Assembly (NCBI GenBank): GCA_916610825.1
Contig: OU744449.1
Location: 13,213,520-13,277,519, forward strand
DNA from: Haliclystus octoradiatus
Taxonomy: Eukaryota > Cnidaria > Staurozoa > Stauromedusae > Haliclystidae
DNA: 64,000 nucleotides
Direction: 5' to 3'
Positions 12,795 through 63,600 of the stretch are shown here, in pieces. The stretch's first letter is position 1, and each line of letters opens with the position of its first letter. The notes beneath the pieces are model-generated. The model did no database searches and had not been told where the DNA came from. It saw only the letters and a list, made by a program, of their open reading frames with translations. The position numbers and the translations under genes are program-made.

Positions 12795-12861
12795 GTTTCG
12801 AATCATAGTTCGAATTAAAGTCTCGATAAAGAAATTAGAAATAAAAAGAAATTAATCAAGA
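12795..12861 (+). other. BEL/Pao untranslated leader
   Basis: A 67-bp segment between the 5' LTR and the Gag-Pol start codon. It contains two TTCGAA motifs in its first 25 bases. The primer-binding site should be here, but no TGG-initial tRNA complement is evident. The ATG at 12862 has a favourable context (AGAATGGCC). Confidence 0.6.
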
Positions 12862-15800: not shown

Positions 15801-18630
15801 TTATGAATGGCAAAGACTTGTTTTTGGTGACCCTCCAAGTCCTGATTTGTCACAGGAAAGTCTTCACTATTTGGCAACAAAATTTGGAAAGGACTATCCA
15901 ATTGGATCAAGCATCGTAAAGAATCACATCTATATGGACGATGTTGCCAGCTCCAGAAATCAACCTAGAGAAGCAGAACAAGTCATCAAAGAAACAACTC
16001 AACTGTTATCAAAAGCAAAGTTTGAAATAAAGAAATGGCATTCCAATTCCATTGAATTAGAAGAAAAAATGAACAAGAAGATTGAAGACAGTAATAACCT
16101 ATCAGAAAATCGTGATACAACCATTTTGGGTCACTACTGGGAGAAAGACATAGATACAATCTCACTGAAATTGAAAAAACTACCAAAGATTGAAATTGAT
16201 GCATCTTCAAAGACCCAAGAACATAAACTGTCAAAAAGAATCATTTTAAGCATGATAGCCAAAGTTTGGGACCCTCTCGGAATTCTGTCACCAGCATTGG
16301 TAAACTTGAGAATTCCTTTACAACAACTGTGGAGAAAAAAATATGATTGGGACACAGCCATAGTGGGAGAAGATGCTGATGACTGGGTGGATAGATTCAA
16401 ACAATTAGAAGGAAAGCTGTCAACCAAAATTGAGCGCTGCATCACTGAAGAAAACAACACCGAATTGCCTGAGCTGCATGCATTTTCCGACGGCGGAGAT
16501 AAAGCTTTTGGCACATGCGTTTACCTACGACAGAAAAGAGAAGATGGCACATTTAATGTACACTTTGTAGCAGCCAAATCTTTTGTAACACCAGTCAAAG
16601 GTTGGACAATACCTCGAACGGAATTAGTTGCTACACTAGTAATGTCTCGACTAGTAAAGAACATTGTCTCAGCATTAATGATCAAACCAAGCACAATTTC
16701 ATACTGGGTTGATTCTAAAGTGGTATTGCATTGGATTAGATCAAGAACTCCTCAGATGAAGGCATTTGTTGAAGCGAGAATTAACGAGATTCAAGAAACA
16801 ACCAAGATTGAAGATTTCCATTATGTTCCTTCTAAAGAGAATGCTGCAGATGCACTGACAAAACCGAACAATGTAGACTTAGAGCAATGGCACCAAGGAC
16901 CGAAATTCTTACAAGAAAAGATTATTCCAGAATTTGAAACAGCAAATATCACTAAAGAAATTGAGCTAAGAAAAGATTTGACTGAAATAAAACCTGAAAG
17001 AAAAAAGCGCAAAAAGAAGACCTGTATAGCAAAGAAGGTGAATGCTTACTTCTCGGTTGCAAACACAATTACAAAGATGAGTGATGAAGAATGTAAACAA
17101 ATACTACAAATTGCAGCAGATAGCAACTCAATGGAAGAAGCAATTAACAAAATTTCAGAAAAATCAAACAAGACTGATCACAAAGGAGGTAAAATGAAGA
17201 TATATCAAGCTCTGCAAAGAAATACTAACTTTGACGATAAGAATTTCAAGAAACTCTGTCCTTTCATTGATGACGAAGACAAAATTTACAGATTAGGTGG
17301 AAGATTAGAACACCTTAAAGATTTCAAGCCCGACTTAGCAGCACCAATAATCATTCCGAAATGTAAAAGGAACAAAGAAAATGACCATTATACTAATCAC
17401 AAAAAAGTCATCAACATGGTTACGAAAGAATTTCATGAACAAACAGGACACTGCGGAGTCAACCGAACACGATCTGCGATTGAACAATCAGGACTCTGGA
17501 TAATTGGAGTCAACAGAATATTGAAAACAATTGGAAAGAACTGTCTATACTGCAGAAGAAGGAAACGTCCTCTGTTGGAACAAAAGATGGGTCAACTCCC
17601 AAGTTTTCGACTGGACTGTGACAAACCTGCCTTCTGGTCATCTGCTGTCGACTTCTTTGGTCCACTTAAAACGAAGCTATACCGTGGAACTGTGAAAGAT
17701 GCTCATGTAGCCTTATTTGTATGCACCGTCACAAGGGCAATACACCTTGAGTTCTGTTACGACCAGGAAGGTGGGGAAGGTCTTTCAACTGAAAAATTTC
17801 TAATGGCTCTTAGGAGATTCGTCAGCTTGAAAGGAATTCAGCCTGTACAACTGTACAGCGATAATGGACCAAATTTAATTGGAGCATCTCCAAAAGTAGA
17901 AAAGTTAGTAAAAGAATGGGATATAAAAGTGCTAGAAAACGGAATTAAAGGAAATGGTTTCCAATGGTTATGGAATTGTCCTACTGCGTCCCATCACAAT
18001 GGAGTTGTTGAGACATTTGTCAACTTGGTCAGAAAAGCATTGGACGCCATGGCAGATTGCTATAACAACACTTTAAAGCCTGATGAATGGATGACTGCTC
18101 TTGCTGAAGTAGCTTATCTTATAAATTCAAGACCACTTTGGCCAAACTCAAGTGCGGATCCTATTGATATGAACGAAATTATAACACCAAATTCCTTGCT
18201 GTATGGACATCATCTGACTCTTCCACAGCCACAAGATGAAAATAAAATACATCCAAAAGATCGTATGGCATCAATTCAGAAGCGTATTCAAATTTTCTGG
18301 AATTATTGGTCATCGAATATGCCAAATCGTCTATTATGTCGAAATAAGTGGTTTTCACAAAGAAGAAACCTGGAAGTTGGAGATATTGTTTTGGAAAAAA
18401 AGAACAACTTAAATGGAATTACCCCGAGAGCAATATGGCCAGTCGCTATGGTAACTGAAACGTTCCCTGGTACAGATGGACTTGTCAGGAAGGTGAAGAT
18501 TCAAAACAAAGCTGGAAGTTATGATAGACCTATTGCAAAGCTTATTCTATTGGCAACAAAAGAAGAAATAGATGCAAAAGCCATCAACGGTACAGAAGAA
18601 ATCCTGGCTGGTATAAAAAGAATAAGATAA
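12862..18630 (+). CDS. BEL/Pao Gag-Pol polyprotein
   Basis: A 1,922-residue uninterrupted ORF. Residues 1–110 are charged and helical (coiled-coil-like Gag start), followed by an acidic linker. About 255–400 resemble the DUF1759 retrotransposon Gag domain. About 470–540 carry Cys/His knuckles (CQLC, CFGC, CQHC…HH). An aspartic protease of DUF1758 type has its putative catalytic Asp at 604 in MDGGADTTL. The reverse transcriptase has YMDD at about 1024–1027. A Pao/A17-type region follows, then RNase H (SDGG, Asp ~1210; VDSK later). The integrase has an HHCC zinc module near 1520–1560 (GHCG, CLYC) and a core with D1597, D1667 and E1717. The C-terminus matches the DUF5641 tail of BEL integrases. 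All catalytic blocks I can recognise are present, so the copy may be autonomous. The encoded enzymes copy element RNA into DNA and integrate it. Confidence 0.96.
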   Translation: MADDAEAIRRRFERRSKAYNREIEEFTTIKEQEFVAIGTWKSILFKVTEARKQVEETASTYLDVLDENNALNGQLELEIDHRVDECRKLHFEIRAETTKMIHELEENEAEKTHKRALEIAAATQNNQVNINEENAGGESSHHESASFEQNDQNDVTDVNNDGDDADSVVERERPTENNKEKEITAGNQRHQDELTHEEGQQSKENESGNATKRDDNIITIELLKDLSKTAAEAAAVAAIRAINIEGKATHSNKTSIRLAGFTPNSWNGEFKGFPTFQKRFTSAMNNAGVLDDDVKLQWLEKSIPQSYHTTIEGRSTLVEAWKALKLVVTDKKISDELMWNFRKLKPIQDKDQNVIQTFVTTIRTHMMYLKDFGKGNRTEDEEFIKDLKRKTGAEFEDQIEDQLAQENRIARKMNMKEEELSADYILEFLERRLLSSNSYRTEKKQQTLSKKESRNFKEAKVNVLQTTNDLNCQLCNNGKHGLEDCNKFKEFEVAERSEYCKSKGHCFGCLGKGHIRPQCKSEVTCQHCRKKHHSLLHRSTYSNQEASTANITQRTASTNTTTKRLNSSQESTATRLPVLKIWIKTGYKNADGTTQIRAATCLMDGGADTTLVRRNFVESLGLQGEDTTIHYEVVGGSHHKEVTQKYELTVGRLEPMAEKGRITAYAMKRPCGAAASLHKEFFAKNEHLNQIKEVVDTDGGEIDVIIGRDAQELHTELQRMTKESSKSAPIGIEFPLGWTIVGGTTHVSKKSGATRKVTSVTLAEETDISSTENMSTLMMSDLVGVNTTQRCVCTDKEIEEARFIKIAKENTTINEDGRIEVRLPWKPGYPEGLPNNYKEVSTNLKRKVKRLQETNKLEDYQRAIQEVIESGFVKKVELKEGEMAHYLEHHLVERDDSASTPKRVVWNSAKIYRGQSVAKALEKGPDLLNSLFKVFIGFREQQIGFTGDIRKMFNMISISEEDRKYHRFLWIEEGNENPTAYEWQRLVFGDPPSPDLSQESLHYLATKFGKDYPIGSSIVKNHIYMDDVASSRNQPREAEQVIKETTQLLSKAKFEIKKWHSNSIELEEKMNKKIEDSNNLSENRDTTILGHYWEKDIDTISLKLKKLPKIEIDASSKTQEHKLSKRIILSMIAKVWDPLGILSPALVNLRIPLQQLWRKKYDWDTAIVGEDADDWVDRFKQLEGKLSTKIERCITEENNTELPELHAFSDGGDKAFGTCVYLRQKREDGTFNVHFVAAKSFVTPVKGWTIPRTELVATLVMSRLVKNIVSALMIKPSTISYWVDSKVVLHWIRSRTPQMKAFVEARINEIQETTKIEDFHYVPSKENAADALTKPNNVDLEQWHQGPKFLQEKIIPEFETANITKEIELRKDLTEIKPERKKRKKKTCIAKKVNAYFSVANTITKMSDEECKQILQIAADSNSMEEAINKISEKSNKTDHKGGKMKIYQALQRNTNFDDKNFKKLCPFIDDEDKIYRLGGRLEHLKDFKPDLAAPIIIPKCKRNKENDHYTNHKKVINMVTKEFHEQTGHCGVNRTRSAIEQSGLWIIGVNRILKTIGKNCLYCRRRKRPLLEQKMGQLPSFRLDCDKPAFWSSAVDFFGPLKTKLYRGTVKDAHVALFVCTVTRAIHLEFCYDQEGGEGLSTEKFLMALRRFVSLKGIQPVQLYSDNGPNLIGASPKVEKLVKEWDIKVLENGIKGNGFQWLWNCPTASHHNGVVETFVNLVRKALDAMADCYNNTLKPDEWMTALAEVAYLINSRPLWPNSSADPIDMNEIITPNSLLYGHHLTLPQPQDENKIHPKDRMASIQKRIQIFWNYWSSNMPNRLLCRNKWFSQRRNLEVGDIVLEKKNNLNGITPRAIWPVAMVTETFPGTDGLVRKVKIQNKAGSYDRPIAKLILLATKEEIDAKAINGTEEILAGIKRIR

Positions 18631-44326: not shown

Positions 44327-47300
44327 TCAGAGGATCCCAAGTAACAAGGCCATATACTTTAATGAGCCAGGATACCAGTGAATTCCTTCTATTCTAGCTC
44401 TAAGATCCATTAACATGGGCGGTGGTAATACCCTTGCTAATAACCTCCATGGACCAAGACTAAAATGAGCCAGTTTATGGCTTGATAATGCAGCATAACA
44501 CGATGTCACTACCCCATTGACTATAATAGTCCCGTCTGCTGTCAGGGGTGCAAATGCTCCCACTCCCTTAACATAGTCTCTGCCAGTTACTTTCGATAAT
44601 ATTATCATAGTGTTGTTACTTGACAATGTCTGTACCCAATGACCAACTTGCACATCATCAGCGAATATTGAACTTAATTCATAAGCATTATATCCCGCAA
44701 AGATCAAATGATCACGTGTTAAAACGAGGCGCTGTTTCATTTCAGTTTCTATAGCAACAAAGTCAGGTACAATATCATACGGCTTACGATCCATGAACAT
44801 TATAATTTCACTTGATACCAAATCCCCATTCGATGACTGTGCTAAAACGAAGTCACCAATTTTTAGATTCTCCATAGCAACAGTTTTTCCATTGTCAAGG
44901 GTCACAATACTGTCACCAGGAAAGCATCGGTTAGCCCACGTGTCATCTGACGCATCTGGAACAAAACGAATTTAAGCATCATTTATGAGCGAATTAATCA
45001 GATAACAGAGAGATTGCTACTAGATATGGGATATTAAGGCGGGAGGTCTAGTTAATGTGGTCAAACTTGTGTTTTTTATTCAGTGGTTTTAAGATCGTTA
45101 CAGATAAATTGCTAGCGGACACCTTTAAGGCAAAATCATTTTACATATAACATCGAATACATTTCATATGATGGAAAAATAATTTATTAGCTAATCAGTC
45201 ACGTAAATAAGTTTACGGATAATGGATGGGTTGCAATGAGAGGAGCATGTTTCATTTAATTATATGATGCTTTTTATATTGATGAGCGTTTACAGCCCCA
45301 TTGCAATCTTCTAATGGGAAATGCTAAATAATGTATATATAGCTAAATGATCAGAAATGAAGTAGGCAGTTCAGTATTTTCTGAGAAAAGGAGAATTGAT
45401 ATTATTATCTTTATTAACTTTAATTGTTACTTAAAATTTTGTCCTCGTTTTAATGGCCATGTAATCATGTATAATATATGTTTTATTAAAAACAAAATGG
45501 GGGTATCTTTTTCATAATATGAAACTCGTTATAATCACTCTGTCAAATCTCAATTTGAAAAACCGAATCGTTCTATTTGCGAAGCGCAATGTAAGTTACC
45601 CCCTTGGGGAACATACTGAAGACGTCATAGTATTCTAACATAATCACGAATATCGTTGTAGCATTACAGCTGCAAGGTTACACATATTTTTTATTTTCTA
45701 GTCTCTTGTAATAACTTTGTTTATCTTATAGACACATGATGATGACGATGATGATGATGTTTGTTTGTTTCATTTATTGTCAATATATCCAAAATAAAGA
45801 TGATGATGATGATAATGGTTCTATTTTGGGAAAAAGCAGTATACTGTATTGAGTATGAAGCACACTTGCAAATACTCACGTGAGATTCACATCCCATTAT
45901 AGACTCTACATGTATCAAAATACGCGTTTCTCTTGTCTCACTAAGTACGCTTCGTATACTATTTCTCCATAAAGATATTAGGCCTGTGTTATATTTGATA
46001 AATATTAGACGCTATATGACCGTTAATTATAAGTCTTGAAATAAATTGCTCTGAATCAACGAATTTAGCTAAACATAAAGGATACCCGAGGGCATCTTTC
46101 TTTGCGATTCAACGAGGTTATTCAAATAGAACTTTGGCTGGATGACCATAAAAAAGTTCCAGATACTGAAAAAGATACTCCAAACATTTTTTCAAAAATG
46201 AAATATTAACCAAAAATAATGACAAAAAGTTTGAGTGAAAATAAGAATTTTTATAAGAAAAGTTAACAAATTGGCCAAAAGGCACAAGTTTTCATGGTAG
46301 AGAATACCACAATTATTTTTCTTCTGGACATTGATAAAGGTTATCCTTTAATATTTGAACGTCCCCGTATATCAGAAGTATGAAAGCTACCCCCCTGTGT
46401 CTGTCAGTAATAATTATTATCAAATATCTCAACCCATTAATCAACTCTCTACTATATCTACTCGATAGATATTTCGAGAACAAATACGTCATATAAAAAT
46501 TATTTTAATCACATTATATTCCCTTGTGGAACTCTTTCGTTGAAGATATTGTTTCAAGCAAAACATTACAAGCATTTAAATTTCAAATAGAAAAAACAGT
46601 CTACCAAACTTTACAAATAGTTTAAGCAGTACTATCTCACTTTTCAAATTTTAGAGAAGCTTATATCATCAAAGGTTTGTAAATTACTGTAACTTTTTGT
46701 TTGCTTGTTTTAAATCTTGTAAATTTAAGCTCATTTAGTGGCCCCCCTGTATTTAGGCACTTCATAGGTGATAATTATTTTAAACTAACTACCCTGATTA
46801 ATTTTTGACCATCAAGATAGCAAAGTTATTCCAACATTCAAAGTGGTAGTTTATATACATACAATCATCAAATTTCTAGTAGAAGCCCATACCGAAGGAT
46901 ATATAACATTTGGAAGCCGCGGGAGTAAGAGTCAGAAAGATTGCATGCAAACTTAAAAAAGGTTTAACTTGCAATTCATAATAACTAGCTATATGAGTTA
47001 ATATAAAATCTATTCTCTTGCCTGTGAAATCATTACTTCTAATTCCACACTTTCAAACAAACTAAAACTGAGCTGAACACGCGTAATTTTCTAATCTTTT
47101 CTAAAAATATTTTGATAAACAGGAAATCAATTATATGGAAGCATGCAGCCTGCTATGTAATATATAATTACGTGGTTTCTATATTTCCATATTTCCATGG
47201 CTTAAATCAGAGGAATCTTTTAATCTTTAAAGAAATATTGTACCAAGCATGGCAATTATAATGGGCGGATTTAAAAAATAATCAACATTTTTGAGATTCA

Positions 47301-50300
47301 AAAGAATTCCTCCAGCCTATCATCATAAATAATAAGTACTCATTCTAAGCTTAATTTAATGCTAATATATGTTATACGTACATAATTATAATAATGATGT
47401 GTATAACTTAAATCGTTAAACCCTTTAAGTAGCATAAAAAAGGTGCCGTCATTGAAGTATTTTCAATTCTTATATTTCTATCATGTTCTGTTCGCAAACC
47501 TACAAGCTCTGTAGTATACAGTCCCATAAAAATAACCAATCATAGAGACACTTTGACTATTATATTGCTATTGCAAATAGTCTAGAATATTCCACCGTGG
47601 TATTCTAACCAATTGGACTCGTCAAATAATAATTTGCACCGGAACTAGTTTCACGATCTTTTCGTTAATTCAGATACAAATGAAAAGAGCCTGGAACTAG
47701 CTCTGGCGCACATTTTGAAATATGTTTTTTTTTAGTCAAATTAGTTCAGAGTATCATTGTGAATAATTCCCGACTACTTCCAAAACCGATGTAATAATCA
47801 AAGTGTCCCTATGATGGGTTGATTTTTTATGGGTCTACTACACAGATTCTAGATTTGTTGTTCTGCTCTGTTATTGAGGATTCTATACCATTCAAAATGC
47901 ACCCAGGACACAAATGGAGTATTTTCTGATTGGATGAATAAGTGATAACGGAAGCATTCTCGTTCCTCCCACAAAGATACACCCATGTCTCCATCCACCT
48001 ATGACGGTTTGAGCCTTTTCGGGGGAGATGTTTTGTGAATCTGATAGGCTAACTTGCCCAATTAATAATTCGTCTATTACATATCTGTTCTCAGCTTATC
48101 AACATATAATTCGTTGGATTGCTATGAACTTTTCTACTGTTTTTAAAATTTATATAAATTGACAATGAAATTTCAAACATTTTAATAACCAAGGAAACAT
48201 GACCGTTCCCAATTACGGAGGAATCAAGCCTATAGCTTAGTAACAAATGAGGCGCTATTGAAGATTCCCTTGTTTGTAATTATTTGGATCCAACAGAAGA
48301 TCTCGATAAAATCGCTAAAATCATTGCACAATTTCAAATTATTTGTCAAATTATGTCAAAAGATAGGTGAAGTTCGAAGGATTACATCAATTTTTTATAA
48401 CTATTTCTATTTGAATAAAAGCCAAATGACGTTCTGAAATCATTAAAATGTATAGATTTGTGTTAGATCGAGGAAGGAAGTTTTGAAAAGAGTATAAGTT
48501 TCTTGTCTGCTATTTCCAAGCGTATATATCACACGGCCCCCCAAGTCATATTAGTTGTCTTCCGCTCTGGGAAAATGAAAGTTATTCAAAGAACGTTATC
48601 AATTTTACGCATTGCCAGAATTACTTATCGCCAGTAAATCTATTATTGTATAAATATTGTGGTCCATTGTCTTGCTTCCCCTCCTTTTCTGTGCCAACTG
48701 AAACTTATCGATTCAACCCATGATGATGCTAAATGTTTTGCATACGATTTCTATATAGCATAGAAGAGTCTGGAATCCTTTACCGTTAAATCCACTAAGG
48801 AAGCAAAGGAAGGCAAAAATTCATTAATATTTGACCCTTCTTTTAACATCTTGTAATCTTGTTTAAAGCTTGGAAGTTTTCAATTTACTTGAATTTAATC
48901 ATGATTTAATCTGTGGTCGATTTTAAACTATCAACTCCCGTCGTACTGTAATAGTTATAACATTGATATTTAAAACTAAAGTTTGTTTAATTTGATCGAA
49001 TTAAAATGGTAAATAATTGTTTAAACATATGAATGAAATTTATAGTTGGGTTTTTATAATTAACTTACCTGCTTTGCATGAAACGTGGACGTGAGCGTCC
49101 ACATACGCCGTGAAATCAAAGCCAGCTCTATAATAAGCCAATGCAGCAAGTTTACCATAACGTGATTTATCGCGATCTGACGTCGTAACATCTATGGCGC
49201 GTCCTTCGTAATGAAGCGAAGTGCGCTCATGCTCGCCATTTTCATCCCAAGCTTCAATAACTCTAAGTTTTACTTCACCATCCCATTCAATTTTAACTGC
49301 TTGAGCTAACGTTTGCAGCATTGATTTACATCGCTGTAAAATCCGAAAATAAACAAGAATAGATATATAAACCACAATGAAACAACACAATTATCAATAT
49401 TTAAAATATAAAAACCTTGGCCTTTTATTTAAGCGCTCCTCTCTGCTCAGCCGCAAAGAAAAAAGTTTCGCGTCATCGATTATAAGTTGCTACGATCAAT
49501 TCGTAAGTCCCAATTGCCAAGTATCCATTTCTAAGCCATGGATCAAGACATCTCCGTTTTATTGTTAAACTTTCATACATTCAAGTGGTTATTATTGTAT
49601 TATATTTGCAAAGGTTTTTTATTAATGAAAACTGTGATTACTATATATTAAATGAATACGACTCTGCGCTGTTTTGAAATCGTTCTACAGACATCAATAA
49701 CATTCCATGACATTTTGTGTCTATTTTGACTCAAAACAAATATAAATCATAACAGATCCTATTCTCATGTCTCACAGCATAGATTTATATTACTTGCTAC
49801 CAGTTATAAAAAAATTGAACATTTTTAACATGCCTTAATTAACAAAAAGAGTAATACTTCAGATGATTGAAGAAATTCTTAAATCCAGCCCAACCATTTA
49901 ATTAGTATAATTTTAATATAATGACTGATGATTTCTTGATAATATTATGTTACTCACCCTAGTCATGTATCTATCTGCGCCAGTTCTCTCGTCATCCTTG
50001 AATAATATATCAGTGGATACAACACGAACAAGTTCTTTTTTAAATCGTTTCGATCCTCTGCGAATTCGCCCTTTAATCGGTCCGCTAGCCTTTTCAGACC
50101 ATTCTTTGATGCCATGTGGTTTTAATTCGTCCAGTTGAAATGGTAGATGTTTTAAATCTTGTCGATATACACGTCGACCAGGTCCACAACCATTTACACA
50201 ATGAAATATCAATAAACTAAGAAATAAGACCAAGGCTATTCTAGAGTAATTGATGAGTTTGTAAACTACCAAGTCAACCATAGAGAATATTGAAGTGTAG

Positions 50301-50332
50301 AAATCAAGAGACCTATATCCAGTCGTAAACAT
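44327..50332 (-). CDS. hh: Hedgehog signalling protein (three exons)
   Basis: Exons: 50332–49958, 49333–49069 and 44955–44327, joined at AGG|GTGAGT…ACAG, G|GTAAGT and CCAG|AT, giving 422 aa. Residues 1–48 hold a hydrophobic signal sequence; Met18 is an equally plausible start. The mature N-terminus is CGPGRR (C49), the palmitoylation site of the family. The signalling domain keeps the zinc ligands (LHYEGRA His, AIDVTTSD Asp, AHVHVSC His) and the calcium-binding acidic stretches ([19 protein letters not shown]). The Hint domain starts at C224-F-P-G, with TRDH (T293, H296) and SCY (C366), followed by a short sterol-addition region ending near GIHWYP. Family role: a secreted, autoprocessed, cholesterol- and palmitate-modified morphogen that acts through Patched. 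Odd points: Arg rather than Gly precedes the cleavage Cys, and the C-terminal tail is short. Exon junctions fall at the usual hedgehog positions (MTR|RCK and SCKA|D). Confidence 0.96.
44956..49068 (-). other. Hedgehog intron 2
   Basis: A 4.1-kb intron with GTAAGT donor and TTCCAG acceptor. It holds (GAT)n-type microsatellites at 45737–45760 and 45799–45814 and the foldback element at 47507–47845. No other gene is visible. In other animals hedgehog introns often hold enhancers; nothing in this sequence identifies one directly. Confidence 0.7.
47507..47845. mobile_element. Foldback / long-TIR MITE-like element
   Basis: A ~339-bp segment that is an imperfect palindrome over nearly its whole length. 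The left arm begins CTCTGTAGTATACAGTCCCA; the reverse complement of the right end begins CTGTGTAGTAGACCCATAAA. Both arms then share (T)CATAG[AG]GACACTTTGA, a TATTC-rich stretch and a GGAACTAG / CTAGTTCC pair flanking the centre near 47676. It is non-coding. I cannot define a target duplication with certainty, so the superfamily is open. Confidence 0.75.
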
Positions 50333-53300
50333 TACTATCTATATAATAAGTATCTTGTTAAACGTAACTTTAGCCACTCAGCCGTTCAATTGAATGAAGC
50401 TTTCAAAACACATTCACGTATAGGTTAAAGTATATATAATTTTATTCTTTATCATATTATTATCTTTTATCATTATTTTTCTTCTTGTTTTCTTTTCTAT
50501 AATTTTCAAATTCCTTTCGTTAAACTTTTTTTGCTAAGGTATTTTTTTCTACTATTGTCTGTTGTCAGTAGAAGCCACAACTTGTGTCTTTGTTCTATAT
50601 AAATCTTACATTAATGGCTAGATATGATGTCCCTCATGCGTCTCGCATGCCAGCTATATGGTACGATATATACAGATTATCTATACATGCATAGTATGTT
50701 AGCCTACCGAAGTCAAGCCGCTTAATGTAGTTGAATTTCGCTACACTAACAATTACAGAAATATATAATAATGGTGTTATCTTTCTACCAAGAATATGTC
50801 TATTCTAATCAGTACAACTTACAATGAATTGAATTACGTCTAAAATATTAACAGAGTAGCTTCCCATTATCTGTAACTGTCCAAAATATGTTCCTTTCTC
50901 AAATAGTATCGCTCTCGTTGATCGCGCTTGCATAAATAAAACCCCTTCGTATATAGGAAGGGTCATCTGTCCACCCAATTCAAAATACCTGTAATCACAC
51001 TTGATAGCCACAATAGTAATTTTACATGTAAAAGCAACTTTATGATTGTCCCTTCTACAATAGATTTATAAAAGAACAGTACTGACTTCGCAACTGTTTA
51101 AATCAAATAATCTTAAAATCGGCATCCCATATTTCTACCAGGTAAAAAATGTTTGAGGTTGTCAGTTTAAGTTTTCTATTATAGAATATACCTATTGTTT
51201 GCCAATTGGCTAGCGCCTCGATTATGTTACTAAATTGTAGACTTTATTGATCTAATGCCTTACTGCTGTTTTCAATTTACCGTCAAGATCAAAGCAAATA
51301 GGATGATACATCGCATACTAACGGTGTTAATGTCCCATTAGGCATGTCTCTGTTTGTTATGAACTATTGATTGAGAGATCAATGATGACAAGTAAAATGT
51401 CAACGAAAATCCGAATGAGGATCAGTCAAATAGGGAATACTTGCATTGCCGACATAATATTGATTCCGGTTGCTTGATACCGAAGGATCTATACGCGATT
51501 TAGGTGGACATTTGAGTATTTTAATTTCAATAACATCAAAGTAAACGAAAGGTTTGTCCATCTTTTTGAATAAATCACGATGACTGCAGAGATGACAACG
51601 ACTATATATTTATCTGAATATTGATTAATAATAATTTAATAGCATCTTAAATTTGTTTGTCAACCTAGAAACATACCAAACATTTAAATTAGTGTTAATA
51701 AGTATATGGTCTAGCCTCAATTTATCTATACTGTGATACGTCGGATATTCTAGCTGGAAAGACTATTAAATAATAGTCAGTGCATTACAAGTCCATGCAT
51801 GGCTATGGCGTGTAGACTGTTAACGATTTCTTCTAAATTTAAGAATTTCAATTTGAATATTCCAAATTAACACGAAAACTTTTTTTGAATTTTTTTAGCA
51901 TTTGAGTCTCAGCGTTCTTGTAAATAAAAAGGTGTAACATAGCGACTACTTATAAATAATTTCTCATAAAATACGTGTGTGACATTTTGAGAAAAACATG
52001 GAATATGCTTGTGATATGAAAGAAAGAAAAACATTCTAGTCACTGATTTCTTTAGACCATTGTAAAGCTAGTGGAAAAGAATAATATCATATCCGCCCAT
52101 ATCAAGAAATTCTCCCTCGTATACACAAGTAGTATCCCCGGTAGTACCACACAGATGGCACGCTCATTGAATTGGATAATAGAACTGAAAATGGACGTAG
52201 TCAATAAATTCGCTAAATAAATCTATAAATAATCACCACGCTTTCCATAATTAAAAATACGATTTAAATCTGTTTTGCTGCTGTAAATTTTACATGCAAA
52301 GTGTTGCGTGGGGTTTATTGATTTCGCTACATTTTCAAAAAATGTCAATCTTGTAAACATTCGTCTGGGAAATAGTCAAAACAAATATTGTATAATTCTC
52401 ATCAAGGGGGTGTGACATTGCTCCAAGTGAAAATGGTGTTAGAGCTTGCTACTATGTGTGGGCACATGACGTAATCGAGGATCGAAATTCAGATATCGGA
52501 TGCTGATTTTGTGATTACTAACACCGCCGCACGCAGTGTAATAAAACGAACAAAGGATTCCATTAATAAGAAAATATGAATGGATTAGATTATTCGTGAT
52601 AATTCTCCTTACTACTTTTGCCCGTGATAGCTCTGTAAAAAAGGCAGACGTATAGCTAACTTCAAGTTAATCTATAGATAACAAATAGTTATAATCTGCA
52701 CACATTCATAGTGTGGGTGGCTTACGTGTAGACAGTGGACATTGGTACGATCACTTATAGCCAGCCTAATAGTTACACATTTTGATTATCATCATGTTTT
52801 TTATACTTTAACGGTGATTATATAGTTATGTCTCATTATGATGAAAATCGTATCATTCCTATACTAACGTGTATTTTATGTTATGATTTGTGTCGCATAA
52901 ATATATAGTAATGCAGGCAGCCCAAAACATTGACTGCTGAAATCTTCGTCTCAAATTTGTGTATGGATTATCAGGCTAGATAAAACATTGTGTTCGTTTT
53001 AACCGACAATGTAGACAATGATGGACATGTCTATCGTATCCACCAGGCGTTGGGGCTTCATCGACAGTACTCCTTGTCTCGTTTCGATAGTATTCCAGAC
53101 ATCTAGCCATCAAGGGCGTCAATCTATCTCCTATCTAATCCAAACATAGATCAGAAGTAACAATGAATTCACAGAGATGAGATTTCACAGACCACCACTA
53201 TTTTGATAACAGCTCACGTGAATCATAACAGTTATCTTGAATGATAACACAGCTATTCATAGTTATACAGATTATCAGTTAAAAACGAACCAAAGACCAA

Positions 53301-53891
53301 TTCACATTGACGCGCGTAAAATATACTATATAGATTTGTTGGCTTTGAGGTAGTCTCAAACTCACGCTGCGTTTTCAATAATCCGCCGAATAGATAGCTT
53401 TTATAAAAACCAAACCCTCAGACAAATAAGAGATCAAGGAAGGTAAAATAAAATACACAGGTACATAAAATGGAAATAGACAGTTATATAGTTTGCTTTT
53501 ATTCACGACAGTATGTCAAAATTAAGTTACGTTGAAAATGAGCAAACAGTTTTCAGCCTTAATTTTTGTCGCAATTGACATGCTTTTAATGCTCAATGTT
53601 AATATTAAATACTGCGTTATGATAAGTCATCAATCCGATTAATAAAAAACCTGATCAATAATTTTGATCTGATTATAAAGTGGATTGTGTTTGGTTTTGT
53701 TAATACAATCATTGCTGGACTGAACAGAAACATGTTAACATTTTAGGGGAAATCAATAAGAAGCTATATACAGATATTTATCATAGATTGAGTATTGATT
53801 GCTCTGATGGAAATTGGAGACCTATTATTCATATATCAGGATATCTAAAGTCCGATAAGCATTAAGCAAACAGGATAACATTGTACCTTGA
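50333..53891. other. Intergenic region between hedgehog and NHEJ1
   Basis: 3.6 kb separating the hedgehog start from the NHEJ1 stop. It must hold the hedgehog promoter and any 5' UTR. No other gene is clear apart from one weak exon candidate (50823–50988). No obvious repeat family was recognised. Confidence 0.6.
50823..50988 (-). other. Candidate orphan exon, function unknown
   Basis: A 166-bp stretch open on the minus strand, flanked by a good acceptor (GATTACAG) and a consensus donor (ATT|GTAAGT). The translation (YFELGGQMTLPIYEG…SVNILDVIQFI) is protein-like, but I do not recognise it and no partner exon is visible. It could be a 5' exon of hedgehog, an exon of an unseen transcript, or chance. 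Confidence 0.25.
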
Positions 53892-56800
53892 TTATAATTT
53901 AAACTTTGATGCTTTCTGCTTGGTTTTTAATTGTGCCTTTTTAGCTAATTTTTTTTGAAGTTCATTTCGTCTTTTTAATTCAAGCTAAAAGAGAATTTTG
54001 TTAAATAATAAAGTAATCGAGGATAACAATGTATAATGAAAATGAGACTGCTACATTGTAAAATGAGTTCACAACCTGCTTGCAGATGCAGACACAATGC
54101 AGTTGCTTCGGTAGTCAACTTGAGTTAATCTTAAATAATAGGACATTGGCAGTGATAGTGGCAATTAAAAGTAAATCTAGACATCAATAACCATCCCATA
54201 CTTTTGCTGCTGTATTTTAATATCCATATCCATGTATCAAGTAATATCGAATTTGATAAATGAAAAGCTATTCTTCAGACGTTTTGATAGAAAGTTTCTT
54301 AACTTTTTTCTCCTTATTTAGCCAATGTAAAAAAACAAGAGATTGTATGCTTACATCTAGCTCTTCTGAATTATCATGCTTCCGTTTTTCACCGGATACA
54401 GGTAGAGCCTCCTCTGAATGGGCAGAGGCTGGTAGCATGAGTGTTGGTTCTGGATTTTGTGTTAGCAGTACAGTTGCTTCCAATGATTGGGCGTCATCTG
54501 AGATGGTAACATAAACTATATAAGTATAGGATATACATAATAGCATAGTGGCATTAGCAGGACATAATCAATAAAAAATAATGCGGAATGCCGTAGTAGA
54601 GCGTAAAGAGGGTGGAGACGGGAGGGTGAGGGCTACAAAGAAACGTAGATACTTCTGTAAGAATAACGAGCTGCTGAGCTCAATCTAGTAAAAATTGTGA
54701 ATGCTGTATTAGAAAATGGTACCAAGAAGAAATCACAGCACAAATACGTTATCTCAAACGAAAGTACTGTACTACAAGATAATTGTAAATGTAAATTATG
54801 GCATTATAACTATGGCCACAAAAATATATGTTTGTTTGATTTATACTTCTATTATATTTTCATTATGGTTTATGAACCACTAAGTAAGAAGTAACACAGT
54901 AAGTCTAGCTACATAGCATTAATGTTCAAACTGAAATAAACGAGCAGCAATAGGAAAGTAAGTATTTTAGATCGTACCATCGACGGTATAGCAACAATAT
55001 AGAATCGCTTTGATCAAAGGAATATAGCACCATTTCATATGTGCCCAATGACCCATTGAGAATTATTAAAATAAAAGATTGATAAGCCTGGTGGTGTATA
55101 TACCTTTAGGCTTTTGAGAATTTGATGCATTCATTGCATTTTGAAAGAATGCTTTGTTTTCGTTGCTGCTAAAGAAATTGTAAAGGTGTTCTTTCTTCTG
55201 TTGTGTTGACTGTGAAAGTAAAGAGAGAAAAAAATGTAATTACATACATAAAAAAATATTTATACCCATTTAATTAGAGCAATCAAATAACAGTAACAAT
55301 GATATTAAACTACATTAATGATTATTAGTTACTTGTATAAAATGGTTAGATGCACTTCATAACGTTTCAAGGTTATCTATAATTGCCAAATTTATCTGAT
55401 ACTTTCAAATTAACTAATAACAAATGCAGTACAATAATACATCTAAGAGGTTCAAACTGCTTATTGTAATTCGTAGTTACAGTGAAACCTGTATATAACA
55501 GCCAGCTAGAATATGTAGATAAATTGACCACTATATGCTGGTGGCCTTTATATACAGGGTTGATTCAATAGAAAATATTATTTTAGACATTGCAATAGTG
55601 ACCAACTATAGATCGGTGGCCGCTATATAGAGGTGATCATTATTACAGGTTTGACTGAAGATATATATATATATACTATATAGGCCTCCTAATAGATGAT
55701 AGATCGATACTTACCAGTTCTTCTAAGCTGGTTGCAATAAATGTATTTTTGTTGAATTCTACTGTCTCTAATGAATCTGTGGAATGACAAAAAGAAAAAT
55801 TATCTATCGCTGTTTTAAAGTCCACAAGTTTGTGAATATGCAGTTCTCAAAAGAGCATTGAATAGCACTGAGCATCATAATAGTGTAATATTCTGCCGAT
55901 ACTGTATCATACTTGCTAAAATTTGATCATATGTTGGTTGTTCTCTTACTTAAAAATGGCAAACCAAATAGTCTGCTAATATTGATTTAGCTATGTCGAA
56001 GATGTTTCATTGGAATTATAGGATTAATAATTATATTCTTTTATACTCTTTCATTATCAAATATTATTATCAAGTATGAGTTACCTTGTTTGTTTAACTT
56101 GTTTTATAATAAGGTAAACACCTTGTGTATTGATATTATTTGATCTCTATGTGAGATTCAAAACAAAGGGGGAACCGCGTAATATATTAGAATCAATGAT
56201 TTTAAAACATGCAAAATGTTTTATTGAACAAACAAATACTATATATTTATATACAAATATTGTTCATTGTTTGAATGTAGACATTTTTGTAGGCTTACTT
56301 CTGCTTACACTGACACCATGTGATTTCAAGTCAGCAATTTTTGCATCTTTTCTTTCAAGAAGAGAAAATAGTGTTTTCTGTTGCCTCTTTAATTCAGTTG
56401 TGATAATAAGAAAAGGTTCAACAAGAAGGTCATGAATCTAAAACAAAAACGATAACGTAAATACTAATTAAATTTAGTAATGTTCTTTCGAAATTATTTT
56501 CTTTTAAATCTCCTCCAAGTGAAACATCTACTCTGTGAAACAGTTCATAAAAAAGTCCAATCAAGTTTCAAATCTGTTCATGAAAGGTTGCTGTGAGAAG
56601 AAGCCATTTGTCGGCGATGTTCACAAACCATCCATTTGCTCATTTTTGCAGAGGAAGTCTTAAACAATTAACATATATGGTCAAAGTTAATGAAATATCC
56701 TATTTTGCCTACCCATTTTGTTGGTGCTTGCTTCAAATGAAATTTCCATACAAATGGGATGCCTTCACTTAGTGTAGTAGAGCATTGCAAAAACGCTTTG

Positions 56801-59800
56801 TCCACTGAAATCTAATAGTAGAATTACAAACATAAATTTTGTTCAAGTGCTGTGATTGTCATAGAATAAAAATTGATCAATTTTCACAAAGCTTACGCAG
56901 GTTATAGCCCACATTATTTTATTTAGATTTAAGTCACCTGAACAAATAATTGATCTATCATCTTCTTAACTGTGGACAGATAATTGTTCATGAAATTGTG
57001 CTAGAAAGGCTAAGTAGGACTAAGTATAAGGCTAATTTGAGCATCTTTTACATGATGCATTCAACCATTGCTGCACTGCTACACGATATGATCTCTAGCA
57101 ACCATTGTTTACTAAAAGGTTGAATTTACATCAACACAATACAAATATTTAGACCTAACAACCTCAAACATTTAGAGTAATCTAACTTAAAATATTAAAA
57201 GTCAAAATTCAAAAAGAAAAAGTTTGTTTTATAATCTAGCCCCTGGCATTTTCACTGCATGCCACACAGGAAATCTAAATAAAATAAACAAATAAACAAA
57301 TATAGGTTAGTCTACATATTACACAATACTTTATCATTTTGTTAAAATTGTTGAAACCTGAGTTAAAGAAGATATTTTGTTAATAATGTTACCGTAACTG
57401 CACTTTAATTCATTGACTTACACAATATTCTACAACATTCTTCTTTAATACAGTTAAGAAATCAATTTTAACTTCCACTGTCTACTCTCTACTGCCAAGG
57501 CATAATAGAATACAAGCTACTAGGGATTCGAATTGACAATTTGACATACAGAGGCATAATAGAAAGAAATAGAATATTCTATCACTATCTAATTTGAATT
57601 GAATATTGATTGATATATTTATCTATGGTGACCCAGTCCAGACCATATATTAAGCATCAATTTTACAAGTTTACATCGATTCGAATATCAGGAAATTAAG
57701 ATGCAACAGTCTGTTTGTTTTTACATTCTCTTTGAAATTCATTCATTCAACAAAATATTATAAGCATTTCATGTGCACCATAGATTGTCATAGTCCCTAT
57801 GACAACAGATCATGCACTTTGTTTCAATTTTCATCGATGTGTTGATTACTAGTAACAGTAAATTAAATGTTGTTGAACAGTTCATGAACAGATCATGAAA
57901 GGTTATGAGATTATGTTAATCAAGAAAATTATATTCCTATATATGCAACTCACTTGAAATGTTATATCAATATTGGGAGAACCATCCACAAAGGTTTCCA
58001 GTTTAGTAAGGACAAACTTGCTGTCTGCTTCAACATTTGGATTCTGAATCTAAATCAAAATAAACAATCTGGCCCACAGTTAGTACAATAGGTCTATCAA
58101 GTCAATGAATGTAAAATTGCCCAAGTTTATATGAACTTATTTTTAAACAGTTCATAAAATGTTCATAAAATGTTCATAAAATATTCATGAAGTGATCATG
58201 AAGGTCATCAACTCATGAACAATTTTTCAATTGTAAGTAAGTATATGGTCAAATAATAGGAAAACGTTCATCATATTTCAAAAACATAATTGGGAAGTGG
58301 ACTTCTAATTTATCCTTATTATAATTACCGTAACAAGTATAGTTGATATAGGCTACAATTCACAAATTTTAAAAATTATTGTATACCAGTAGGGCTAAGT
58401 ATTAGAAAATTTGAAATGATTAGTCTACACGTATTCTAAATGTTTACGTCTTTCTAAATCTACCATTGATTAGCAAATGTAAAGAGTCCAAACTGTCAAT
58501 AGAATATGATGGTAGGACGGTGTTGTGTGGATTAATAAAATTGAAGGTCCATGTTGAAAAGCTCTAGATTTGTTATCTTGTCCCGAGCAATTGGGGTCCA
58601 AATCTAGCTTTTCCAGTAATTGTTTGGTGGGGGAGCGGCGTTCCTCCAATACTTTATCCGGGAGGACGGCGTCTCCTCACTATTTTTATTTGAAGTAAAG
58701 TTTTATATGTTCGTTTTCATCAATATTAACAGTAATACATAAAAGTATTACCATAGTAATCATATTCGACAAGAGCTTGTAAATAAAGTAATTTTAATTA
58801 GAGTAAATCATTTAATCTCTTAATGTCTTTCACAATAGATTATTACATACTGCATAAGTCCCTTAAAACGCACTACATATTTTTTATAGAGGGGCCTCCC
58901 ATGAATGGATGCCCTAGAAAAAGGGACCTCAACCCCTACAGGATTTACGAGCCGTTCCCTGGCTATATTATTCACAAAACATCACTGAGCTGTTCTAGCA
59001 AATAGCAACGTAAACAAATGGAGATTGTATAGTCCAACACAAGGCAATGTAGGCCCTACCACCTTTCTATTGCTGCAGCCCTCGTATTTTGGCTGTGAAA
59101 TCCAAGTGCATTCTTCATGAAAACCTATGTTTCTGAATTCATACTACGGGTGGGTCTTGATATTGTTTAATTCCTGATGTCAAGATGGCTTTTATTATAA
59201 TATTTGTTAATTTGTTTTCATAGTATGCTGGATATGTGCAAGTTATTTAGTGATAGACAAACAGGACTTGAAGTTATAATGATAATATATATATTTAGAG
59301 ACACATGTTTACAAGACGAAGGACAGAGACATAAGAGAAGTAACAAGGTGTGGCATTACAATTTACAGTTCTACAAACGGATATGACAAGTTGACTTCCG
59401 CGCTAACCACCACATATAAGATGGATCAGGCCCTAAAAAGTTCACACTTATGTTTCTGGTCTATGTCTAGTCTTGTAGCTCACTGTGAATTTAAAAGTAA
59501 CGGAAAAGTGGTAATAAAGTAGGCCCACTGGCGTTTTAGGTACACTTTCAGCACATGTTTAGCTCCTTTTCAGAATATTGAAGTCCATAACTTGTTTATT
59601 GCCTTGAGCAAAGAAGCTGAGCTCCTTAGTGATAAATTGGTCATCAGTGAATCTGAAATCACAATGGGCCACGCAAGCAATCAAGCACGACACCGAACTA
59701 TTGGTACTAAAGCACGACATCAGGAAAATGAAACAGGTGATTTCTATGAAAGGAAATATCGCAAAACTGACATGCGTGAAGAGTGAATTTCAAAAAATTT

Positions 59801-60641
59801 CCCTTTTGATCAGAGAAAATTGCTATGAACTCAAGTCTTGAACTTAATATCATTTTTAAGATTCTAAGCCATATCAACCTTTTTATTAATAGCATTCATA
59901 TCTCTAATAATAATACCCAACCGACTTGGTCAACAAACAAAATGGACTACATTCTCATGGAACTCCTTCTCCGCGCGCACTGCACTTTTTAAACTTCTAA
60001 TTCTCTTCTGGGGCATCTATACGCCTTCGATTAGGCAAGTTTTTTGTGTTTAAGAAGTTTCTATTGTATTGAGGAATCCTGCCACCACGTCTTGATTAAC
60101 ATGTGCTTTGTCAAGGGCTATTTCCGGTTCTTTGATATAATTATTTTTTCTTCACAAGTTTCACTACCAGGCTACTTCAAGGAGCAAAGCCATCTTTAAT
60201 TTGGGGGAAGCTGAACGTTTGTTATGATAATAATAACATCTAGTTATCTAGTTTTTACATGAAAAGAGTAGGCCTATACACCGTGTATAATACAAGGTTT
60301 GATATTATCTGAATTTTGAAGGACAGTTGTACTGGATATCGTTATATATAGCCTATTTATCAATTAGAAATAAAGTATGCCTAATTATTTGCAATTACAA
60401 GTAGCAACGATTAACGAACAACTACCTCACATGAAGATTTGAATTCCTCTTCGTCAAGTGTCTCATACCATAAAGTATCTTGATCGTAGATAAGTACAGT
60501 GTAGCAGTAACTATTTTGAAGTTGAGACGGCCTGACAAAGTCACCTTTGACAAGAAGTCTACTTGTACTACTGGTGCTGTTAATAGTGATATCTCTCCAT
60601 GTGCGATTTAAAAGTGAAGCTGACAAATTACTTATCTCCAT
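53892..60641 (-). CDS. NHEJ1: NHEJ1/XLF-like non-homologous end-joining factor (eight exons)
   Basis: Exons: 60641–60426, 58043–57954, 56811–56713, 56437–56299, 55776–55715, 55209–55104, 54497–54304 and 53984–53892. All junctions keep frame and total 999 nt (332 aa; human XLF is 299). Residues 1–135 align with the XLF head domain: LLNRTWRDITI, VLIYDQDTLWYE (human LLVSDLQQVWHE), EGIPFVWKFHL (human SGLPFYWNFHC). Residues 136–180 match the coiled-coil stalk: LLVEPFLIITTELKRQQ (human LIRPLMGMSLALQCQVREL) and SHGVSVSR. The human XRCC4-contact Leu115 corresponds to Ile120. The tail is low-complexity and ends KQKASKFKL, a basic stretch like the Ku-binding end of XLF. Family role: a nuclear protein that bridges DNA ends with XRCC4–LIG4. 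The exon 7 donor (GTTAAG) is weak, so that boundary is least certain. The alignment is from memory, without a search. Confidence 0.87.
55480..55657. mobile_element. Small inverted-repeat (MITE-like) element in NHEJ1 intron 5
   Basis: 178 bp starting CAGTGAAACCTGTATATAAC; its end reads, in reverse complement, CAGTCAAACCTGTAATAATG, giving terminal inverted repeats of about 20 bp with a few mismatches. Inside are related GGTGGCC…TATATA motifs. It is non-coding. The ends resemble Tc1/mariner–pogo-type MITEs, but a TA target duplication is clear only on the left. A (TA)n run follows at 55661–55675. Confidence 0.55.
56812..57953 (-). other. NHEJ1 intron 2
   Basis: 1.1 kb, GTGAGT donor and ATTAG acceptor. 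It contains dispersed GTTCATGAA-type motifs (near 56985 and 57878) but no gene. Confidence 0.7.
58044..60425 (-). other. NHEJ1 intron 1
   Basis: 2.4 kb, GTAGTT donor and GATTCAG acceptor. It includes a short tandem repeat of TTCATAAAATG units (58147–58190), a hairpin with arms at about 58555–58572 and 58601–58617, and two GC-richer hairpin-like motifs (58630–58678). The plus-strand frames at 59592–59841 have no recognisable domain. By position it is a candidate place for regulatory DNA, but nothing proves this. Confidence 0.6.
58147..58190. repeat. Short tandem repeat (TTCATAAAATG)n
   Basis: About four 11-bp units, the last ones degenerate (TTCATGAAGTG), in NHEJ1 intron 1. Confidence 0.8.
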
Positions 60642-60676: not shown

Positions 60677-63600
60677 CAGGGCTTCCAACCCTCCCGATTT
60701 AATCGGGAGTCTCCCTATTTTCACACATTTCTCCCGCTCTCCCGACTTTTTAAAATTCAATACAAATCTCCCGATTTTGTTGCCTTTTTTGCTACTTTTC
60801 AATATAAAAAATCCTGAAGCTGTTGAGCGTATCAAAGTCTTGTAAAGATTTTATTACCGTCGTAGACAGTGACTGTTTATGTTCCCGACGAGTCTATTCG
60901 CTAACCTCTTTTCGCCATTTTTGAATTGCCTCTGTTCCACCTTTTCTGAAGATGATGTAATCTCTATTTTGGTACCAATCTCACTATCAAAACATTCATT
61001 GCACTACTTCTGGTTGCGTAGCAGCACGATCAAACAAAATATTGCAAGATGGCTGATTATTTATCCGAAAATGATTCTATTGACGCTAATTATTCTGAAG
61101 TCGAAAGTTCTGACGTAGACGATGTCATTGACAATGAGGAAAGTTCGTCCAGCTCTAAAGAACCACTTGCAAAGAAGAAAAAATACTTAACACGATTTAG
61201 CAGCGATTGGTGTTCTAAATATCAATTTGTTCAGCCTTGTTCAAAGCAAGCTGTTGTTAGTGCTGAGTACAAGTTTCACTGCACTTATTGTAACACTGTG
61301 CTTTCATGTTCTCGGGGAGGGATCAATGACATAGAGAAGCATGCAGGTAAATTACAATTAAATTAAATTTTTAGTTATTTAGAATGTACACCGTAATCTT
61401 TGTTTTCGAACCTAATGAAGCCACAATATTTGGCTCCAATATCGAAGCAATATTGCTTCTCTATCTTTTCTTTGTCTTGCGTTCTTGTCAATGTTTTTGT
61501 TTGTATGAATATTCAAAGCAAATAAATTCTCAAATTCAGATATTAACTATAATGTCATTGTTTGAAATACATTTTTACTTGAATTATATTTTACTCTTGA
61601 CTTTTGCAGAAACTCCAAAACACAAGAACAATGAAAAGCATGCAAAGGGCTCAAGGATTTCTGCATTCTTCAGTAAAAGTCGACCGCGAGTTGAGAAAAC
61701 TGTGTCTTCTCATCCTTCAATTCTAGCAGAAGTGAGAATGGCAATGATGATAGTGCAGCATAATACATTTTTTAGCCTTGCTGATCATTTAACAATGTTT
61801 ATCAAGCAGGAATTCAAAGGCTCTAAGGCAGCTGAAAAATTTTCCTGCGCAAAAACAAAGACGTCTGCAATTGTAAATTGTGTAGGGGCAGCATTGAAAG
61901 AGGATGTTATCATTCAAATGAAGCAGAATCCTTTTAGTTTCATGATTGATGGAACAAATGACTCTAGTATTGATAAAATGTACCCCATTACCGTTCGTAT
62001 TTTTGATGTAAATTACAACCGAATTATGACAAAGTTTGTCGATATCAACCTTATAAGTGGAAAATCATCAGCAACTGCAGAAAGTATTTTTTCAAGTGTA
62101 GACAAACTTTTTGCTGAGCATGACATTTCTTGGAAAAATGTCACCGCACTTGGGGTGGACAATACAAACGCCAACATTGGGGAGCACAACTCGGTAAAGA
62201 GCAGGGTGTTGCAAAAGAACAATAATGTATTCATTGCTGGATGTCATTGCCACATTATTCACAATGCTTCACTAAAAGGTGCTACCCAATTTTCCAAAAT
62301 TTGTCAATTTGATGTGGAAGACCACCTTGTTGACCTGTATTTCTGGTTCGACAAGTCGACTAAAAGAAAAAACAGCTTGAAGGAGTATTTTGAGTTTTGT
62401 GATTCTGATTATGAATCAATACTTAAGCATGTTTCTGTCAGATGGCTGAGTTTAGAGCAGTGTGTTGATAGAGAACTGAAAAAGTACGAAGGATTAAAGT
62501 CATACTTTGCATCAGAGGATCATCCTCAAGCACGATTCCAGAGGCTAGCAAAGGCTTTCAGTAATCCAATGACGGAATTATATTTATGGTTTTTCAATTC
62601 GTGCCTAACAGGATTTTGTGTGTTCAATAAATTTTTACAGAGGGAGGATCCGCTTCTGCATCTATTGAAAGAACAAATGGACAAGTTTATGGAGAAACTG
62701 ATTCTAAAATTTGTAAATCCCGATAAACTGACAGAAGAGAAGCAGAAAGGTGGCTCTTATCAAACGCTATCTTTGGAACTGGGTAATCAGAAAGAAGATG
62801 AATTCTTAGCAATCGGCTTTAAAACAAAGCAACGGTTGAGAGAGCTGTTTGAAAATGGAGATATCACAGAAAACGAAGTTGATACCTTTTATTCAAGCGT
62901 TAGAGCTTTTTACTTGAACTCATTTCAGTATTGTAAGAAGTGGCTCCCGTTAGAAAATATGCTTATCAACAATTGCAAATTTGTTGACTTCCAATTCAGA
63001 GGTGCTGCATCGTTTGACAATGTCACAACAGCAATGGAACAGCTCCCTCAAATCCACGGTAACAGTTTGGTTGACCCCAAAATCATGGATGTGTTGGAGG
63101 AAGAGTTCCTTGCTTATAAGGTTCTTGAAAAAGAGTGTATACCAACATCTACGTGGGATGACGCTCTTGTAAAAGTAGAGGTAGATGCAAACGATCAAGT
63201 GATCACACAATATCATAGGATGGATATATTGTGGGCTTATTTACAAAATGTGTACCCCAATCTAGCAAAAGTTGCGTTGTCCATTTTAACAATCCCTCAC
63301 AGTAATGCTGGTGAAGAGCGTGTCTTTTCGTTGGTTGGGAGAAACAAAACGGATTTCCGGCCATCATTGGACACTGGCAAAACCCTAGCTTCGATTATGC
63401 TCATCAAAATGAATATACCAGAAAACTTAACACCATGCTATCAATGGAAGCCTTCTAAAGAACTTCTGGAGAAGTGTAAAAAGGCAACCCGTGATTACAA
63501 TGAAAAGCATGGTAGCTACAGAAAGAAGAAATAAATTACAGTAACTGTAAAGTTAAAATTAAAAAATCCATAAATTGATCTTATGTTACGATTGATTGAT

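Follow-up and report, generated by a model that had tools for sequence, protein, structure and literature searches.

Predicted hedgehog and XLF/NHEJ1 genes of a medusozoan cnidarian adjoin, ordered and oriented like vertebrate IHH–NHEJ1

Gene models at the locus

The window is a stretch of 64,000 nucleotides (GCA_916610825.1, contig OU744449.1, positions 13,213,520 to 13,277,519) within the 29-Mb contig C5 of an assembly of 262 Mb in 33 contigs, and this account concerns a hedgehog gene and the XLF/NHEJ1 gene beside it. Both genes were modelled by hand from the genomic sequence. The hedgehog gene has three exons (minus strand, 44327-50281) and encodes 405 residues; the XLF/NHEJ1 gene has eight (minus strand, 53892-60641) and encodes 315. 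All nine introns of the two models are GT-AG, and both frames are open through to the stop. XLF stands directly upstream of hedgehog, in tandem on the same strand. In these models hedgehog is shown directly downstream of XLF/NHEJ1 in a medusozoan cnidarian, with the order and orientation of vertebrate IHH–NHEJ1. A preliminary description of the window had placed hedgehog and an XLF-like gene side by side on the minus strand, hedgehog 3' and 3.6 kb apart; its coordinates, order, orientation and spacing were all right, and the two introns that it named (58044-60425 and 56812-57953) are the first two of XLF. The parts of the pair, in the direction of transcription, are as follows.

60426-60641, minus strand: XLF exon 1, with ATG at 60641 and the first part of the head domain; XLF Pfam match of 1.5e-06 on the frame alone
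58044-60425, minus strand: XLF intron 1, 2,382 bp
57954-58043, minus strand: XLF exon 2, head domain
56812-57953, minus strand: XLF intron 2, 1,142 bp
56713-56811, minus strand: XLF exon 3, end of head domain
56299-56437, minus strand: XLF exon 4, coiled-coil stalk region
55715-55776, minus strand: XLF exon 5, from the splice model
55210-55714, minus strand: XLF intron 5, 505 bp, including a dispersed repeat at 55475-55673
55104-55209, minus strand: XLF exon 6, from the splice model
54355-54497, minus strand: XLF exon 7, from the splice model
53892-53984, minus strand: XLF exon 8, basic C-terminal tail and stop
50282-53891, no strand: spacer from XLF stop to hedgehog ATG, 3,610 bp
49958-50281, minus strand: hedgehog exon 1, with ATG at 50281; carries the signal-peptide region and the CGPGRR that opens the Hedge domain
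49334-49957, minus strand: hedgehog intron 1, 624 bp, phase 0
49069-49333, minus strand: hedgehog exon 2, second half of the signalling domain
44956-49068, minus strand: hedgehog intron 2, 4,113 bp, phase 1
44327-44955, minus strand: hedgehog exon 3, Hint (autoprocessing) module, from splice site and open frame; stop codon at 44327-44329

Identity of the hedgehog gene

The spliced hedgehog protein was matched in Pfam by HH_signal (2e-52, residues 32-193) and then by Hint (1.8e-49, residues 195-398), and the exon 3 frame by itself gave Hint at 1.1e-49. When sequences in the PDB were searched with the protein (E<=0.001), all 27 distinct sequences returned were hedgehogs, headed by fly Hh at 4.8e-79. 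The marks of a hedgehog ligand were all found: a Hedge domain followed by Hint in one protein, CGPGR at the mature N terminus, and the autocleavage cysteine. The autocleavage site (44912-44932) reads NRCFPGDS. The residue before the catalytic cysteine is R, versus G in fly Hh and human SHH; in two other proteins, P0001 and P0007, it is S and E, respectively.

A midpoint-rooted tree was built from 23 sequences (the window protein and 22 of 48 homologues). The window protein and two EukProt proteins were grouped with support 100/99. The hedgehog of the jellyfish Rhopilema, on a very long branch, was placed apart from them, which speaks mildly against a cnidarian host. For a cnidarian clade this tree of sequences settles nothing, neither proving nor excluding it.

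A profile search of the assembly, run in six frames with single exons scored, matched no second hedgehog ligand gene. One candidate, at C10:20331000-20340999, was rejected: HH_signal occurs there in two frames, and the same strand continues with frames for VWA and cadherin domains. It is the only other Hedge-domain gene matched in the assembly and was read from its domains as one Hedgling-type gene, not a ligand. The name Hedgling and the Hedge/VWA/cadherin architecture, taken here to be known from non-bilaterians, fit this gene.

Identity of the XLF gene and its intron positions

The XLF head domain (PF09302) was matched in the spliced protein at 1.4e-14, with 54.9 bits against a cut-off of 24.6. 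Profile search had been named in the preliminary description as a test of which family the eight-exon gene belongs to; it returned XLF and no other family. The XLF coiled coil (PF21928) scored 0.0015 and 18.8 bits, under its cut-off of 27; the PDB alignment nonetheless extends to residue 198. All five distinct sequences found in the PDB at E<=1 were NHEJ1, the best at 2.1e-10. A protein database search with it, of a kind that requires shared exact words, yielded no homologue at E<=1e-3 among 1,473 candidates, which weighs against this identity and reflects a divergent protein. The protein closes with a basic tail whose last residues are KQKASKFKL, at the end where an XLF Ku-binding motif would lie. 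Across the assembly no second XLF was matched and exon 1 gave the only PF09302 match; as single exons are scored and only exon 1 of this gene matched, a divergent second copy could escape the search.

Intron positions were compared through the PDB alignment, in which window residue 72 corresponds to human residue 59 and residue 181 to human 176. Exon 1 of the window gene ends at codon 72 in phase 0, and exon 4 ends after codon 181 in phase 1. Human NHEJ1 introns are placed, in excerpts of three papers, directly before c.178 (PMC7335369), directly before c.530 (PMC12031859) and after c.588 (PMC10425348). The counterparts of the introns at c.178-1 and c.530-2 are exact in position and phase; that of the c.588+ intron is window intron 5, which falls within one codon and in the same phase when counted onward past the end of the alignment. 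Each of the three human introns looked up in these excerpts has a counterpart in the window (two exact, one within one codon). A fourth human intron, presumably after c.390, likewise fits the window gene. Additional introns of the window gene, for example after codon 102, are not known to have a human counterpart. The matches in position and phase argue for orthology of this XLF with human NHEJ1.

Surroundings of the pair

The other features mapped in the window are these.

61375-63534, strand opposite to XLF: hAT-type transposase frame just past the XLF 5' end; Dimer_Tnp_hAT 3.1e-09
1-41400 (end approximate), plus strand: 1.8-kb units repeated in tandem 3' of hedgehog, 20 of them within the window
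12856-18630: open reading frame of a BEL/Pao retrotransposon inserted in the array; one long frame with Pao protease, reverse transcriptase and integrase zinc-binding matches

The 1.8-kb units share one orientation and are 95-100% alike over a first 300-nt reference, apart from one segment of one copy at 86%. Most of the left flank of 100 kb is occupied by the array. Of ten spot checks farther left, five contained it, out to C5:13.0235 Mb, and none of the four at or below 13.0035 Mb did. In total it covers about 230 kb, interruptions included, close to the middle of C5; it is a candidate centromeric or pericentromeric satellite immediately next to hedgehog.

The right flank was scanned in part: 260 frames of at least 60 residues were kept after retroelement, low-complexity and masked frames had been dropped, 70 were viewed, and five were submitted to Pfam. 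Beyond the hAT transposase and retroelements recognised by eye, it contains LEO1, TRNT1 and a bZIP gene. Among these lie an RRM frame, taken by eye as NIFK and just under the Pfam cut-off, and a PHYH-like frame recognised by eye, with no Pfam match. Among the best 120 of 7,613 matches to the TRNT1 neighbour, in a search that scored only candidates sharing the most words, 11 carried an organism name and all of these were non-bilaterian (nine cnidarians, one sponge and one placozoan).

Host and chromosomal setting

The host was placed from the mitochondrial contig C33 (18.3 kb), of which the first 9.5 kb were used. DNA_pol_B_2 (2.9e-15), for an organellar family-B DNA polymerase, and COX1 (6.2e-161) were matched there on one strand, with ATP synthase A and a subunit of NADH dehydrogenase on the opposite strand. 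By eye, cox2, cox3 and nad5 were also identified in these 9.5 kb. Two tRNAs were found there; one has the anticodon CAT, and the other, TCA, was labelled as selenocysteine under the bacterial code and read as Trp. A polB gene, cox1 opposite most genes and tRNA-Trp and tRNA-Met as the only tRNAs are taken to be the medusozoan mitochondrial layout, and over 9.5 of its 18.3 kb the contig looks like the medusozoan cnidarian type. A tunicate origin, considered at first, was rejected when C33 and the TRNT1 matches indicated Cnidaria. With such a host, common descent would date the pair before the cnidarian–bilaterian split. The statement in the preliminary description that the linkage predates vertebrates holds in outline; its framing among invertebrate deuterostomes was set aside because the genome looks cnidarian, which would put the split in question earlier.

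Five genes presumed to lie in human 2q35 (ARPC2, DNPEP, ATG9A, CNOT9 and BCS1L) were located by family matches, not as tested orthologues. Three of the five (ARPC2, DNPEP and ATG9A) were matched on C5; the probability of three or more is 0.011 if genes are placed in proportion to contig size. The SLC23 family, with three of its four loci on C5, was left out of this count since it has several members. The CNPPD1 Pfam family had no match in the assembly and none in 14 control genomes either, and is uninformative. On these matches C5 probably shares ancestry with human 2q35. Shared ancestry would make a common chromosome unsurprising; the immediate adjacency of the two genes would still be surprising.

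These results bear on the main rival explanation, a coincidence on a conserved chromosome, by which only the linkage group is shared and local shuffling joined the two genes separately here and in the vertebrate ancestor. The matches of C5 to several 2q35 genes speak for it, as both genes may be old co-residents; so do the choice of the match after it had been seen, the agreement of a single neighbour gene, and the poor keeping of local gene order described for sea anemones in an excerpt of PMC10719294. The probability that the one visible neighbour would belong to a set of 1-18 vertebrate hedgehog neighbours, and match in side and strand, is about 2e-5 to 6e-4 across the genome. Even with both genes already tied to one chromosome it is 2e-4 to 5e-3. 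Both estimates assume 15,000-25,000 genes and 1-18 vertebrate hedgehog neighbour families. In favour of descent, microsynteny between cnidarians and bilaterians is well above that of shuffled genomes, with 162 new planulozoan blocks of at least three genes versus 17-25 in shuffles (PMC8851819, in part). Coincidence was given appreciable weight, at a level clearly below even.

Regulatory sequence

Human IHH and NHEJ1 presumably lie in the same tandem direction as the window pair. The chicken Creeper deletion, as described in part of PMC7096424, runs from NHEJ1 intron 4 to past the IHH 3' untranslated region, which gives a tandem arrangement in one direction. An Ihh enhancer located in an intron of the adjoining NHEJ1 has been demonstrated for mouse, human and chicken, and enhancer i8 is placed at least 18 kb into the intron that follows c.588 (PMC10425348, in part). 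A mouse deletion beginning within Nhej1 misregulates Ihh (excerpt of PMC2428104). The vertebrate comparison drawn in the preliminary description, with NHEJ1 upstream of IHH in the same direction and an Ihh enhancer in an NHEJ1 intron, is borne out by the excerpts of PMC10425348 and PMC7096424.

It had further proposed hedgehog regulatory DNA in NHEJ1 introns as the reason for keeping the pair, a lock on the two genes that would date from before vertebrates. The vertebrate enhancer supports this explanation, and control of a neighbour from bystander introns is a proposed cause of old pairs such as wnt7-atxn10 (PMC8851819, in part). Intron 5, the counterpart of the enhancer-bearing intron, is 505 bp long, compared with 18 kb or more in human. 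The dispersed repeat at 55475-55673 takes up about 200 bp of this length and has four further matches (78-85% identity), all in the right flank, in 264 kb searched. This leaves little room there for an inherited enhancer cluster, and the proposal found no support. A cluster of TTCATGAA sites in the XLF introns was also dropped: it holds five of 31 copies in 122 kb, and the sites are common in the flank too, with clusters elsewhere. An intron-enhancer lock of that age was judged improbable. Introns 1 and 2 and the spacer are possible sites of hedgehog regulatory DNA, and the spacer would be the most likely site of the hedgehog promoter and proximal regulatory DNA.

The head-to-tail arrangement on one strand could also be explained by shared expression or by co-transcription, as an operon whose transcript is separated through trans-splicing. 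For an operon, however, a spacer of 3.6 kb is long, and it contains four AATAAA signals on the strand of the gene pair; the two functions are also unrelated. This explanation was considered very unlikely.

Interpretation

The adjacency occurs in two distant lineages in the same orientation, the window and, in the excerpts cited above, vertebrates. Inheritance of the pair from the cnidarian–bilaterian ancestor is the better bet, held with a little over even confidence.

Several observations weigh against it. CNOT9 was matched on C4 and BCS1L on C1, not on C5, and the SLC23, ATG9 and DNPEP matches on C5 lie about 1.5 to 8 Mb from the pair. No vertebrate IHH neighbour was recognised in the partial scan of the 100-kb right flank, the pair alone being shared, and satellite DNA occupies the left. 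Sea anemones are described as poor in microsynteny and as lacking CTCF and clear topologically associating domains (TADs), with regulatory elements near genes (PMC10719294, in part).

The mechanism proposed here begins with hedgehog and XLF as neighbours in the cnidarian–bilaterian ancestor, within the chromosome that would have become human 2q35 and C5. The pair would have stayed together while the surrounding genes were reshuffled. The hedgehog promoter and proximal regulatory DNA would fill the spacer, perhaps reaching the XLF 3' end or the larger XLF introns, and a break within this region would damage hedgehog, which would supply a short-range reason for the linkage. The absence of CTCF and of clear TADs from sea anemones, as given in the excerpt of PMC10719294, means that long-range regulatory locking is not expected; with their regulatory elements near genes, an old pair would more likely have a short-range cause. 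On this view the enhancer cluster in vertebrate NHEJ1 introns would have been elaborated later, within a bystander that was already adjacent, and would not be an inherited part. This whole account, with the two genes immediate neighbours since that ancestor, held by local hedgehog regulatory DNA before TADs and CTCF, and IHH enhancers later built by vertebrates in the neighbour, is tentative and, taken with all its parts, rather doubtful.

Were the pair ancestral, the gene neighbourhood of this signalling ligand would be of great age, in a phylum where sea anemones are described as keeping little local gene order and as lacking CTCF and clear TADs. One could then examine whether a bystander gene filled with enhancers developed around an earlier linkage of short range, and there would be a testable outgroup for the human NHEJ1/IHH disease locus.

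Comparison with known systems

A literature search found the pair described for vertebrates, and NHEJ1 and amphioxus together only in a line of a repair-gene table; as the search lacked cnidarian terms, whether the cnidarian pair is previously unreported cannot be said from it. Nothing on a hedgehog–NHEJ1 pair was found in the available parts of PMC2954159, PMC13317027, PMC10735318 and PMC9363661.

The Shh-Lmbr1 and Dhh-Lmbr1l linkages (PMC4280113, in part) are alike in setting a hedgehog gene beside a bystander neighbour. That paper proposes that hedgehog was ancestrally grouped with LMBR, RHEBL and MLL genes; its main text does not mention NHEJ1. The window differs from these linkages: eight of nine LMBR1-family matches in the assembly are on C2, and C5 has just one, a weak single-exon match under the cut-off that lies about 4.5 Mb away. 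Conserved pairs of the wnt7-atxn10 type, or genomic regulatory blocks (PMC8851819, in part), likewise join a developmental signalling gene to an unrelated gene; the hedgehog–XLF pair differs in being known from the genes alone, with two lineages compared.

The closest likeness is to vertebrate IHH–NHEJ1 (human 2q35; chicken Creeper). It differs in the length of the intron matching the enhancer-bearing one (505 bp here, at least 18 kb in human) and in the matches to SLC23, ATG9 and DNPEP, presumed neighbours in human, which are megabases off here. It is the same in having NHEJ1 directly upstream of the hedgehog gene on one strand, and in the position (one within a codon) and phase of three human NHEJ1 introns.

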